Below are positions 11,908 through 52,354 of a stretch of 64,000 nt of DNA, piece by piece (within the stretch, counting starts at the first letter, position 1; each line of letters begins with the position of its first letter). The DNA lies in IMG/VR virus record IMGVR_UViG_3300009103_000017, positions 1 to 64,000 of that record; one strand, given 5' to 3'. The notes under the pieces are model-generated. The model ran no database searches. It saw only the letters and a program-made list of their open reading frames with translations, and was not told where the DNA came from. Origin of the DNA: a virus. A program made the position numbers and the translations under genes.

Positions 11908-13770
11908 ATGGAGGTGTCGAGTAAAATTCTGTCAGATATAACAGTGCACATGAAGTATGCCAGGTTTTTGCCTAATGAAAATCGTAGAGAAAGTTGGGAT
12001 GAGCTGGTGTCACGAAATATGAAGATGCATTTAAAGAAGTTTCCGAATTTAGAAATGGAAATTTATAAAGCGTACAAACTTGTGCATGACAAAAAAGTTC
12101 TTCCGTCTATGAGATCTATGCAATTTGGGGGTAAACCAATCGAAGTTGCCCCAAACAGGATTTTTAATTGCGCCTATATGCCTATTAATGATTGGCGCTC
12201 ATTTGGCGAATCTATGTTCTTGCTGCTAGGCGGAACCGGTGTTGGATACAGTGTCCAAAAACATCACGTAGAGGAACTACCAGAAATACAGCTGCCAAAT
12301 CTAAAGCGCACCCGCCGATTTTTGGTAAATGACTCAATCGAAGGTTGGGCTGATGCAGTAAAGGCTCTTATGAGGTCTTATTTTTATGGAGGGTCACGCC
12401 TTCGATTTGATTATTCGGATATACGGCCCAAAGGGGCGCGCCTTATAACGTCTGGAGGTAAGGCTCCAGGCCCCCAGCCGCTTAGGGAATGTTTGGTTAA
12501 GATCGAGGGTATGCTATCGGAGAAAGATAGCGGGGACAAACTAAGCACTATTGAAGTTCATGATATAATTTGCCACATTGCAGACGCTGTGCTTGCTGGT
12601 GGAATCCGTCGCGCCGCCCTGATCTCTCTTTTTTCGGCAGACGATCAAGAGATGATATCTTGTAAAACGGGAAATTGGTGGGAAGCTAATCCCCAGCGCG
12701 GCCGCGCAAACAATTCTGTTGTCTTATTGCGCCACAAGATAGAGAAAGAATACTTTATGGATCTTTGGGAGCGTGTGCGCGCCTCCAACGCCGGCGAGCC
12801 CGGGTTTTATTTCTCCAACGATAAGGACTGGGGGACTAATCCGTGTTGCGAGATAGGTCTTCGACCGTACCAATTTTGCAACTTAACAGAAGTGAATGTT
12901 TCGAATGTTACAAGTCAGGAGGATCTGGAAGAGAGAGTGCGAGCAGCCGCATTTATTGGAACACTGCAGGCTAGCTATACAGATTTCCATTATTTGCGTG
13001 ACGTTTGGCGCCGCACCACAGAGAGGGATGCCCTGATTGGTGTGTCCATGACGGGGATTGCTTCTGGCAGTGTTTTAGAGCTTGACATGCAAGCAGCTGC
13101 TTTGGAGGTGAAGAAGGAAAACAGGAGAGTCGCATTCCAGATCGGAATAAGACCCGCAGCTAGGACCACTTGTGTTAAGCCTGCTGGCACTACTAGCTTG
13201 GTTTTAGGTACATCATCTGGGATCCATGCATGGCATAGTGAGTATTATATTCGCCGTCTTCGAGTTGGAAAGAATGAAGCGATATATGAATATCTTTCAA
13301 AGCATCATCCCGATCTTGTGGAGGATGAGTATTTTACCCCACACACGACGGCTGTAATATCTGTGCCGCAAAGAGCTCCAGAGGGTGCCATATTGAGGTC
13401 GGAATCATCCCTTCAGCTTCTGAAGAGGGTGAAAAATGTTTCTGAGCACTGGGTCCGTTCTGGTTTTTCTAAGGGACAAAACACACACAACGTTTCGGCA
13501 ACCATATCAATAAAAGATGCAGAATGGCAAGATGTGGGAGAGTGGATGTGGGAGAATAGGAATAGTTATAACGGCTTGTCAGTTCTCCCTTTTGACGGGG
13601 GAACCTATGTTCAATCACCGTTTGAGGAGTGTTCAAAAGAGACATACGAAGTTATGATGTCGGCTTTGAATGATGTGGACCTTTTTATGGTAAGTGAAGA
13701 TGAGGATAATACAGATCTTGCAGGTGAAGCCGCGTGTGCAGGGGGAGCATGCGAAGTTAAATTTGTTTAA
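11908..13770 (+). CDS. nrdJ: Class II (B12-dependent) ribonucleoside-triphosphate reductase
   Basis: 620 residues, consistent with the monomeric adenosylcobalamin-dependent family. Visible features: LPSMRSMQFGG, first redox cysteine in IFNCAYMPI, GGTGVGYSVQ, the active-site finger NPCCEIGL (N, C and E retained; the usual NPCGE glycine is Cys), partner cysteine in QFCNLTEVN, KPAGTTSLVLG, and a C-terminal redox pair in CAGGACEV. It makes dNTPs for phage replication and needs no separate radical-generating subunit, only cobalamin. The glutaredoxin at 29.7 kb could be a reductant. Confidence 0.92.
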   Translation: MEVSSKILSDITVHMKYARFLPNENRRESWDELVSRNMKMHLKKFPNLEMEIYKAYKLVHDKKVLPSMRSMQFGGKPIEVAPNRIFNCAYMPINDWRSFGESMFLLLGGTGVGYSVQKHHVEELPEIQLPNLKRTRRFLVNDSIEGWADAVKALMRSYFYGGSRLRFDYSDIRPKGARLITSGGKAPGPQPLRECLVKIEGMLSEKDSGDKLSTIEVHDIICHIADAVLAGGIRRAALISLFSADDQEMISCKTGNWWEANPQRGRANNSVVLLRHKIEKEYFMDLWERVRASNAGEPGFYFSNDKDWGTNPCCEIGLRPYQFCNLTEVNVSNVTSQEDLEERVRAAAFIGTLQASYTDFHYLRDVWRRTTERDALIGVSMTGIASGSVLELDMQAAALEVKKENRRVAFQIGIRPAARTTCVKPAGTTSLVLGTSSGIHAWHSEYYIRRLRVGKNEAIYEYLSKHHPDLVEDEYFTPHTTAVISVPQRAPEGAILRSESSLQLLKRVKNVSEHWVRSGFSKGQNTHNVSATISIKDAEWQDVGEWMWENRNSYNGLSVLPFDGGTYVQSPFEECSKETYEVMMSALNDVDLFMVSEDEDNTDLAGEAACAGGACEVKFV

Positions 13771-13778
13771 TTTTTTTC

Positions 13779-13807
13779 TTGATTAAAGGACAAGAATCAG
13801 ATATAAT
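13779..13807 (+). promoter_or_regulatory. Sigma70-type promoter for groES
   Basis: TTGATT (13779-13784), 17 bp spacer, perfect TATAAT (13802-13807), then TTAGGAG before the ATG at 13839. It follows a T-rich run right after the reductase stop. Confidence 0.7.
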
Positions 13808-44481: not shown

Positions 44482-44653
44482 CGTAATAAAAGTAAGTTCA
44501 GTTCTGGATGGTGTCCATCCGGTTGGAATTGTAATGAAGGTTGTCGAGGAGTCAGAAGACCAGCCTCGCCACATGATGTGTCTTTACCTCGATGGCGACT
44601 ATGAGCCGCTAAATTACGACACGGATTTCGAGGTTATCAGTGAAAGTCGGTGA
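44468..44653 (+). CDS. KVGDLV array member 5
   Basis: 61 residues from GTG: VKVGDVIKVSSVLDGVHPVG, then IVMKVVEESEDQPRHMMCLY, ending FEVISESR. First member where L-V is replaced by V-I after GD. Confidence 0.68.
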   Translation: MKVGDVIKVSSVLDGVHPVGIVMKVVEESEDQPRHMMCLYLDGDYEPLNYDTDFEVISESR

Positions 44654-44840
44654 CTTGATAAGGTTATCTCGCGGTGTTGGCAATCACTTTGAGTTGAAAA
44701 GTTATGTTGCCACCTTAGTCAAGAAGCTGCCAAGAGATGATTCTTATGAATACGACTGGCTCGTTATGACAGACGGCAGATATATTGCACTAGGCAGACA
44801 AATAGAACAAAACGCGAGGATTCTCAGTGAAAGTCGGTGA
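44640..44840 (+). CDS. KVGDLV array member 6
   Basis: 66 residues from GTG: VKVGDLIRLSRGVGNHFELK, then SYVATLVKKLPRDD, YDWLVMTDGRYIALG, ending RILSESR. Confidence 0.68.
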   Translation: MKVGDLIRLSRGVGNHFELKSYVATLVKKLPRDDSYEYDWLVMTDGRYIALGRQIEQNARILSESR

Positions 44841-45039
44841 TTTGGTGAGGCTACCAAAAGATGATCACTATTGGTGGGGCAGCAAGGTGGGCCTTGTAAC
44901 TGCTCTAGAGGATAATCATTTAAATCCTGAACTGAGTACTCTCAGAATCATGGTTGCCGTTCCCAGTCCAGAATACAGCTATGTTATGTTTGGTGCTAAT
45001 TTTGTGGAGTTAGTAAGTGAAAGTCGGCGATCTCGTTAG
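44827..45039 (+). CDS. KVGDLV array member 7, extended by lost stop
   Basis: 70 residues from GTG: VKVGDLVRLPKDDHYWWGSK, VGLVTALEDNHLN, ending LVSESRRSR. The junction here reads GTCGGCGATC instead of GTCGGTGACT, which removes the usual TGA, so this protein runs three codons further to a TAG. Confidence 0.66.
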   Translation: MKVGDLVRLPKDDHYWWGSKVGLVTALEDNHLNPELSTLRIMVAVPSPEYSYVMFGANFVELVSESRRSR

Positions 45040-45220
45040 GTGGACGGAAATTGAACAAGTTTATCATATTGCGTGTGCTATCGGGTTTGAAGATCTTGTC
45101 GAAGTCCGCCAACGTGGCGTGATTCTCGACAAGAATCCAAAATATTTCTTTGTATTTTGGGAGAACGGAGATTACCGGGCACAGCCCAGCTCTGATTTGG
45201 AGGTTATAAGTGAAGCTTAA
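45017..45220 (+). CDS. KVGDLV array member 8
   Basis: 67 residues from GTG: VKVGDLVRWTEIEQVYHIAC, then VRQRGVILDKNPKYFFVFWE, ending LEVISEA. The next junction is shorter and diverged. Confidence 0.66.
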   Translation: MKVGDLVRWTEIEQVYHIACAIGFEDLVEVRQRGVILDKNPKYFFVFWENGDYRAQPSSDLEVISEA

Positions 45221-45437
45221 CCCAGGGGATAGTCTTTATTATGAGCCACACTCTGCCTTTGCGGTGTTAATTGAGAGGTTTCCGGATGACCAGGGAAATT
45301 ATCGTTGGAGTTACGCGCTTCGCAGTCCCAGATCGCGCGATAACCCAAAGATAGTGGTGGCCATCCGAGAGGACTGTGAGACAAAACTTTTAGGGGCCGT
45401 GGAATCGGGAGAACTAGTGCATTATGAAAGTCGGTGA
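45210..45437 (+). CDS. Array member 9 (LNPGD type)
   Basis: 75 residues: VKLNPGDSLYYEPHSAFAVL, NYRWSYALRSPRSRD, ending ELVHYESR. The conserved start is relaxed to K-L-N-P-G-D, but the YESR end again supplies the start of the next gene (ATG this time). Confidence 0.62.
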   Translation: MKLNPGDSLYYEPHSAFAVLIERFPDDQGNYRWSYALRSPRSRDNPKIVVAIREDCETKLLGAVESGELVHYESR

Positions 45438-45624
45438 TTTAGTGTTTGTAGACGGCTATGAGGTGGGTATTGTTTTGTCAGAGCCTAGGCTCTCGGAAGA
45501 TTGCTTACCGGGCGGCGAAGCTTACCCATACGAACACTATTACCTCGTTGATGTGTTAACTCAGAGCGGCGACCTGGATTGTTTTGAACCAGAGGACTTG
45601 GAGCTTGTCGGTGAAGCAAGGTGA
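45424..45624 (+). CDS. KVGDLV array member 10
   Basis: 66 residues from ATG: MKVGDLVFVDGYEVGIVLSE, then YEHYYLVDVLTQSGDLD, ending LELVGEAR. Confidence 0.66.
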   Translation: MKVGDLVFVDGYEVGIVLSEPRLSEDCLPGGEAYPYEHYYLVDVLTQSGDLDCFEPEDLELVGEAR

Positions 45625-45868
45625 CCTCATAAGATATAGACTGGATCTTTGGAAGGCGAAGGCCAAGTGTATGGTGAGTAAAAGAATCTTTATTGTGCGC
45701 TGGGTTGAAGAAGAGAACGACTGGGTTTGCGTGTATGGCGTCGAGCCGCCAATACAAATGAGGATGATGGAGATCGTAAGTGAAAGTCGGTGTTTGCTAA
45801 ATGGAGAGACAAAAGGTAACCACTTAGAGTCAAGTGGAGTAAGTTTGTCACAGGACAAAAAAGAATGA
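45611..45868 (+). CDS. Array member 11 (KQGDLI), C-terminally extended
   Basis: 85 residues from GTG: VKQGDLIRYRLDLWKAKAKC, IFIVRWVEEENDWVCVYGVE, EIVSESR followed by an extra tail CLLNGETKGNHLES... The junction after ESR reads CGGTGTTTG, so both the stop and the next start were lost; translation continues about 27 codons to the next TGA. It looks like a decayed junction. Confidence 0.6.
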   Translation: MKQGDLIRYRLDLWKAKAKCMVSKRIFIVRWVEEENDWVCVYGVEPPIQMRMMEIVSESRCLLNGETKGNHLESSGVSLSQDKKE

Positions 45869-46056
45869 AAGTCGGTGACTTTGTGAGAGACAATCACCCA
45901 ACTCGTTCTAGTATCAACAAGGTTGGTGTAATACTAGAACGAACGCGCCTAGGCACATCGTGCTTAAACAAGTGCTTCAAGATCCTGTGGTGCAACGGCA
46001 CCATTGGAAACAACGTGTGGGACTATGACCTGAAGGTAATCAATGAAAGTCGGTGA
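45865..46056 (+). CDS. KVGDFV array member 12
   Basis: 63 residues from ATG: MKVGDFVRDNHPTRSSINKV, GVILERTRLG, FKILWCNGTIG, ending LKVINESR. Confidence 0.68.
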   Translation: MKVGDFVRDNHPTRSSINKVGVILERTRLGTSCLNKCFKILWCNGTIGNNVWDYDLKVINESR

Positions 46057-46243
46057 CTTGGTAAGAACGCAGACCGGCTTTCGGACTCACGGCTTTGTGG
46101 TGGCTGTTGGGTATTCGCAAGAATATACGTGTGTGACCCAAAGCCCGGACTTACATCCTGATCTTTGGGTCATCAACGCTCGTAATGGTGAGAAAGAGAG
46201 ATGGTCATCCTATTATGTGGAGGTAATCAGTGAAAGTCGGTGA
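46043..46243 (+). CDS. KVGDLV array member 13
   Basis: 66 residues from ATG: MKVGDLVRTQTGFRTHGFVV, AVGYSQEYTCVTQ, LWVINARNGEKERW, ending EVISESR. Confidence 0.68.
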   Translation: MKVGDLVRTQTGFRTHGFVVAVGYSQEYTCVTQSPDLHPDLWVINARNGEKERWSSYYVEVISESR

Positions 46244-51751: not shown

Positions 51752-51780
51752 TTGACAAATCCTAGAAATTCGGGTAATAT
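51752..51780 (+). promoter_or_regulatory. Promoter of the large structured RNA
   Basis: TTGACA (51752-51757), 17 bp, TAATAT (51775-51780). Predicted start near 51787. No protein gene follows for about 600 nt; the transcript is the structured RNA described next. Confidence 0.75.
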
Positions 51781-51786
51781 ATACAT

Positions 51787-52322
51787 ATAAACAATCGAGA
51801 TGCGCCTTGAGGATTGGCCGTGATAAAGGAATCCTTGTAACTGTGGTTAGCGACCCGTATAGCTTGAAAGTGTAGGGTAAGCGGCGAGAATCCGCGATGG
51901 CCCCAAAAATAGAAAGATTCTTTAAACATAATCAATACTTGAGTGAAGGATTTTAGCGTCCGATCAGCGCGAAGGTTCTTCAGTGTAGAGCAGTAATACC
52001 AAGAGGCATGTTCAAATCGTGTCCACGCAGGAAAAAGTACTGCGTGCCGCGACGCGCACTAGGTAGAAAGGCGTCGTAGGGTCCGGCCTTGGGTTGTGTG
52101 GTGAGTTGTTGTGCACGACAGCAAGCCTTCCACAAGCTCAAGTATTGTTTAGGTTTAATGATTCACCCGTGGGGGACATAGGCCAGATGGTTCTTACCAG
52201 TGGTTGCGTAAGCGAGGGAGTGATTCCCAGGGTAGGCTATGTCCAGTTGTGGAAAGTTGGGAATCCACGACAATTTTGTCAATGCCAATCGCGCGATTTT
52301 TTTCCGTTTCGCGCCAATTTTT
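51787..52322 (+). ncRNA. Candidate ~500-nt structured non-coding RNA
   Basis: No credible protein frame. Strong pairing is visible by eye: ends closed by GATTGGC (51812-51818) with GCCAATC (52284-52290), and GCGC (51802) with GCGC (52291); a 10-bp long-range helix CAATACTTGA (51933-51942) with TCAAGTATTG (52138-52147), extended by TAAAC/GTTTA and GTGAAGG/CCTTCCAC; local hairpins ACCC/GGGT (51853/51875), GCGG/CCGC (51881/51892), CACGCAG/CTGCGTG (52024/52040), CGACGC/GCGTCG (52050/52071), GGACATAG/CTATGTCC (52174/52237) with an inner GGGA/TCCC. A weak stem plus T run (GCGCGA..TCGCGC) ends it. Size, promoter and tRNA-bearing phage setting resemble the GOLLD/ROOL ornate RNAs; identity unproven. 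Confidence 0.7.
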
Positions 52323-52324
52323 TC

Positions 52325-52354
52325 CTTGACCTAGCGGTCAAGACGTGATAAGAT
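52325..52354 (+). promoter_or_regulatory. Promoter with perfect -35 palindrome
   Basis: TTGACC (52326-52331), 17 bp, TAAGAT (52349-52354). The -35 lies in CTTGACC-TAGC-GGTCAAG, a perfect 7-bp inverted repeat. Leader has GAGAAGGG before the ATG at 52386. Confidence 0.72.

Follow-up and report, generated by a model that had tools for sequence, protein, structure and literature searches.

GOLLD is a large structured RNA borne by phages and prophages, often near tRNA islands, with a conserved 3′ region and a variable 5′ region, and ROOL is a phage-borne structured RNA that likewise lies near tRNA islands and whose function is unknown; the ROOL studied measures 659 nt, and many GOLLD RNAs are longer than 800 nt (PMC12286853). 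Phage T4 encodes the small stable RNAs rnaC and rnaD, the functions of which are also unknown (PMC3014915, PMC9697503). In T4 (L229, 1409-1748), tRNA-Arg is followed 1 nt later by rnaD and then by rnaC.

The locus described here lies in a 64,000-nt stretch (the window) of a 73.9-kb IMG/VR record from an uncultivated marine phage, which encodes a phage DNA polymerase, a UvsX-like recombinase, a DnaB-like helicase, a ribonucleotide reductase and four tRNAs; small ORFs surround the RNA locus. The initial annotation had read about 500 nt of it as gene-free and as a structured non-coding RNA, driven by a promoter of its own, that might represent a new class. Indeed, the sole ORF of at least 60 aa that starts inside (52094-52348, with a TTG start) is not credible, and the RNA reading is supported by the fold, the promoter, covariation and negative Rfam searches. 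The 536-nt region 51787-52322 folds with a z of −3.64 relative to shuffles, and the structure is unevenly spread, with z values of +0.4 for the leader (51787-51930), −4.1 for the middle domain (scored over 51934-52147) and −2.6 for the 3′ domain. We predict that the transcript from the promoter consists of three parts, a leader, a middle domain and a conserved 3′ domain; the last (52166-52275), which had not been singled out before, is the phylogenetically conserved part. The features are as follows.

51752-51780, + strand: sigma-70-type promoter TTGACA-17-TAATAT, matching the consensus at 10 of 12 positions
51787-51930, + strand: 5′ leader, unstructured (z +0.4)
51916-51928, + strand: boxA-like sequence GATTCTTTAAACA from a pattern scan, a lead only
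51933-52147, + strand: middle domain with internal hairpins, closed by an 11-bp helix (z −4.1)
51948-51961, + strand: hairpin GGA-UUUUAGCG-UCC, with a suggestive resemblance to the conserved GGAUUUAGCGGUCC of a second RNA, element U
52006-52022, + strand: hairpin GCATG-TTCAAAT-CGTGT, resembling a tRNA T arm (sequence reading and MFE fold)
52166-52275, + strand: conserved 3′ domain (P1, P2, P3, P4, P5), a new family by covariance model R1
52174-52181, + strand: P1 5′ strand GGACATAG (covariation, 29 sequences)
52237-52244, + strand: P1 3′ strand CTATGTCC (covariation, 29 sequences)
52182-52204, + strand: P2, with base GCCA/TGGT (52182-52185/52201-52204) and a variable P2b hairpin (52188-52199)
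52205-52214, + strand: P3, TGC-GTAA-GCG with a GNRA tetraloop, invariant in the 29-sequence alignment
52216-52228, + strand: P4, GGGA-GTGAT-TCCC, a variable helix with one pair compensated (11 sequences)
52246-52271, + strand: P5, an 8-bp hairpin with the near-invariant 10-nt loop AAGTTGGGAA and 7 of 8 pairs compensated (11 sequences)
52291-52324, + strand: probable terminator, GCGCGA...TCGCGC and then a T-run, read from sequence

The promoter claimed earlier is thus present, and promoter-like sequences, read from sequence, lie immediately upstream of the RNA in a matching layout in L111, L116, L212, L217, L219 and L226. The leader has no blastn homologue in deposited phages or related records. 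Sequences similar to its boxA-like GATTCTTTAAACA, namely CTCTTTGA/TTCTTTGA, occur immediately upstream of the RNA in L212, L217 and L219, and upstream of element U in L200; all of these resemble the boxA of rRNA. At the other end, the candidate terminator scored below the threshold of a simple terminator scan, and a similar terminator-like arrangement is found in L103 and G047. Two further signals were noted here. The intergenic motif GCCAATCGCSGSTATTTTTTT, at 52284-52303 in the window and also in G043, G044, G046, G047 and L116, occurs once in most of the related phages searched, near the RNA, and may be a terminator or another signal. The palindrome CTTGACCTAGCGGTCAAG, at 52325-52342 in the window and also in L103 and G047, overlaps a promoter −35 box and is likely an operator.

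Two long-range helices had been proposed. The outer one, GATTGGC/GCCAATC, which was thought to close the ends, is rejected: a 7-bp match at such a distance arises in 29% of shuffles, which is the chance level, and its 3′ arm, GCCAATCG, belongs to a different intergenic motif that related phages also carry. The inner one, CAATACTTGA/TCAAGTATTG, claimed as 10 bp, proved to have 11 (51933-51943 with 52137-52147), and an equally long helix at that distance appears in 1.2% of shuffles. Blastn of related records gave no homologue of the middle domain that it closes, and the structure of that domain is predicted from folding energy. The middle domain occupies the position where element U would be, and its GGAUUUUAGCGUCC hairpin has a 14-nt likeness to GGAUUUAGCGGUCC of U; a pattern scan for U-like hairpins was positive in the window and the three U-bearing loci only. 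The U model, R2, detects nothing in the middle domain, and homology to U is therefore not claimed. No tRNA was called at the hairpin resembling a T arm.

By blastn, neither the region itself against deposited phages nor five family members against 50,697 deposited phage records gave a significant match. Relatives of the window phage’s polymerase and methyltransferase were fetched and their whole records searched, IMG/VR and, in one run, GTDB contigs were searched with degenerate DNA patterns from shared blocks, and the covariance model R1 was applied. G002 carries 78 nt at 91% identity to the 3′ part, with tRNA-Arg upstream. The family, drawn from IMG/VR phages and a single MAG contig, comprises 29 distinct sequences; its non-seed members match R1 with E-values of 1e-10 to 1e-36, and the window copy, itself part of the model, matches with 1.5e-34 in G000. 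The model searches found a single credible copy in each carrier record, which is a minimum statement because many carriers are fragments. The RNA was found in none of the remaining records fetched for their related polymerase or methyltransferase, many of which are fragments, and of 59 genomes chosen around the Dehalococcoidia MAG only the MAG itself has a copy. Several pattern hits without model support over R1’s length were set aside as chance (L105, L107, L108, L110, L147-L150, L205, L214, L218, L220, L222, L224, L227 and L228; L222 was scored over the searched pattern only).

Rfam searches, whether run at the gathering threshold or under E-value cut-offs, returned nothing beyond tRNAs, a pair of group I introns in L197 and weak hits below threshold, and a text search of papers for the core sequence found no match. 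The locus is almost certainly a real RNA of a new family, absent from Rfam 15. Structured phage RNAs beside tRNAs are a known kind; the family is new. The carriers G042, G048 and G049 overlap little with the window phage in gene content, the shared genes being mostly at 30–55% identity, and yet keep the core. As 33 positions of it are invariant across the 29 distinct sequences, from phages that in part share few genes, the core must be strongly selected.

In the family fold, P1 has 8 bp, P2a (ACCA/UGGU) is stacked on P1, P3 is UGC-GUAA-GCG, P5 is a 7–8-bp hairpin with the near-invariant 10-nt loop AAGUUGGGAA, and J4/1 terminates in AGG. Comparison of the sequences shows that P1 closes a multi-way junction of P2, the GNRA-capped P3 and an optional P4, with P5 following. 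The positions invariant across the 29 distinct sequences are located in the junction strands, P3 and the P5 loop. The variable parts are P2, P4 and the 5′ part. Thus, P4 is enlarged in L215 and L223 and missing in L221, and the P2b site takes at least three unrelated modules, the 4-bp hairpin of the window being replaced by larger ones in other phages. To the 3′ domain the window phage adds a folded 5′ domain of about 215 nt. The size likeness to GOLLD and ROOL noted initially accordingly holds for the window phage, but not for most relatives, which have only the 3′ domain of about 110–200 nt. The P2 module of L111, L112, L113, L116 and L211 has two exact copies of AUUGUUGUCAA around an inner hairpin that differs; the copies might lie opposite one another in a symmetric internal loop, and the arrangement resembles a protein-binding or antisense site. 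A pseudoknot between CCC at the 5′ end and GGG in J4/1 is plausible in the window clade and is not claimed, because it is lost in the tRNA-adjacent group.

Covariation supports this fold. In a MAFFT alignment of the 29 sequences, made without structure and independently of an earlier 11-sequence one, 231 of 232 cells of P1 are paired and 6 of its 8 pairs are compensated; for P1, P2a and P3 together, 99.8% of cells are paired, with 42 double-changed cells. P1 appears as GACAUAG/CUAUGUC, GACACAG/CUGUGUC, GCUGUAG/CUACAGU, GGUACAG/CUGUACC and AGUGCAG/CUGCACU, and the P5 stem changes at nearly every base between members while its loop is kept. In the 11-sequence alignment, 97.4% of cells are paired and double changes occur at 16 of the 29 pairs, either value being reached by none of 500 shuffles; sliding the partners by 1–3 columns lowers the pairing to 34–42%. 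The window copy has both the P1-P2-P3-P5 fold and the invariant blocks. A protein-coding gene is rejected, the conserved blocks falling in different frames in different relatives. At most 12 of the 29 members keep any one frame open across the core, the P1-to-P3 spacing and that between P3 and the P5 loop take all three values modulo 3, and an invariant TAA closes the frame across P3 in one phase.

tRNA genes lie within about 450 nt of the RNA in 8 of the 29 copies, and in six of these the gene is tRNA-Arg(UCU), a common phage tRNA. The 3′ domain begins a few nucleotides after tRNA-Arg(UCU) in L199, L203 and L208 (the L203 anticodon was read by eye), about 118 nt after it in L103 and about 420–450 nt after it in L200 and L202; L200 also has tRNA-Lys just downstream. 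In L216, the RNA is preceded by tRNA-Leu and followed by tRNA-Lys, as read from sequence, and in L197 it stands behind a tRNA half and a group I intron. Group I introns at 12982-13172 and 13592-13790 flank the RNA in L197, the first apparently splitting the upstream tRNA gene. The tRNA island suggested initially was thus a good lead, as several relatives abut tRNA genes, although in the window the nearest tRNA is more than 3 kb away. Because no tRNA was seen within about 450 nt of the other 21 of 29 copies, the window’s included, the link to translation is drawn from a subset. The RNA is often co-located, and in several members apparently co-transcribed, with phage tRNAs; it differs from them in fold, and neither ARAGORN nor Rfam calls it a tRNA. 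Within the window clade, the genes flanking the RNA are found on either side in different phages, and it therefore behaves as an independent gene.

We propose, with a probability of about one half, that this phage locus encodes a structured, untranslated and trans-acting RNA of a new family that docks on a host component of translation or RNA processing. The RNA would be transcribed from its own promoter or jointly with phage tRNAs, and tRNA 3′-end processing would, in some phages, release its 5′ end. It would act in trans as a scaffold whose invariant junction strands and P5 loop dock on a single conserved component of the host, most likely one from the translation or tRNA/RNA-processing machinery, with the variable arms bringing phage-specific extras. 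We predict a stable RNA acting in trans rather than in cis because there is one copy per record and the neighbouring genes change sides. Invariant junction strands, P3 and P5 loop are what would be expected of surface docking on one conserved partner, which would have to occur in the hosts of little-related phages. The co-location with tRNAs in a subset and the boxA-like sequences (L212, L217, L219 and, for U, L200) point towards the translation or stable-RNA machinery; assigning the partner to translation or tRNA/RNA processing is tentative, and we hold it to be less likely than not. The alignment and structure allow the core of about 110 nt and its partner to be tested directly.

The described RNAs themselves offer two alternatives. 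A divergent GOLLD or ROOL forming a multimeric cage, a 14-mer in GOLLD, would also be phage-borne and possibly close to tRNAs, and GOLLD likewise is conserved in its 3′ part and variable in its 5′ part (PMC12286853). However, the Rfam models of both gave no match at E≤10 in the window or L202, or at E≤1 in the other members, so this reading, for which a covariance search had been suggested as the check, is not supported. Furthermore, the conserved unit of about 110 nt often stands alone, against 659 nt for the ROOL studied and more than 800 nt for many GOLLD RNAs (PMC12286853); we regard such kinship as scarcely credible. An extremely divergent rnaC or rnaD would fit the position of the RNA in L199, L203 and L208, right after tRNA-Arg as in T4, although the window copy is not directly downstream of that tRNA. 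In the T4 tRNA region, however, R1 found nothing credible (its best score, 8.9 bits, lies elsewhere in the region than rnaC/rnaD), and models R2 and R3 have no match over the T4 genome. Homology to the T4 RNAs is rejected in so far as these models detect none, and we consider it very improbable. Adjacency to tRNAs in some phages nevertheless gives a new comparative handle on the role of the T4 stable RNAs.

Other alternatives concern the mode of action. An antisense regulator that pairs through its loops with phage or host messages could have its own promoter, the terminator-like end of many members and an exposed, near-invariant P5 loop, and the exact AUUGUUGUCAA repeats of L111-L113, L116 and L211 could serve it too. 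Yet conservation follows the pattern of a folded junction, and a target kept across dissimilar phages would need to be universal; we think this unlikely. Rather unlikely, too, is a cis-acting leader or attenuator of the next gene with P5 as its terminator. A T-run does follow P5 in many members, and a ribosome site and ORF lie shortly downstream in L103, L104 and L106, but P5 has no T-run in L200, L202 and L216. Moreover, what comes next varies from promoters (L111, L114, L116) and tRNAs (L200, L216) to the probable terminator of the window, and, with gene order around the core changing, no consistent downstream gene was found. A decoy function against host defence or a tRNA-cleaving enzyme would suit a phage-borne RNA with a fixed core and variable arms that stands beside tRNA-Arg(UCU) in some phages. 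The core, however, is near-constant across dissimilar phages, unlike the typical parts of an arms race, and a decoy seems improbable to us.

Upstream of the core in L200, L202 and L216 lies element U, a second conserved structured RNA of about 180 nt that is also unlisted. With R2, U was also located immediately downstream of the core in L217 (E 8e-32) and, by a weak match, in L210 (E 1e-8); no further carriers emerged among those searched, giving five phages in total. In each of the following, U adjoins the core RNA.

L202:2239-2418, + strand: U
L200:9138-9319, − strand: U
L216:2056-2236, + strand: U
L217:236-414, − strand: U, by R2 match
L210:7220-7399, + strand: U, by weak R2 match

The closing helix of U, GGUGGGAGUC/GACUCCCACC, has compensated pairs, as judged from only three sequences. 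The core RNA and U might together be the environmental-phage counterpart of T4 rnaC/rnaD, that is, modular stable RNAs that are expressed with phage tRNAs and that bind and reprogram the host translation machinery during infection; we offer this as a doubtful extension of the proposed trans-acting role. Elsewhere in the window, at 44640-46243, there is a run of overlapping ORFs of about 66 aa, each starting before the previous one ends, which are apparently translationally coupled.
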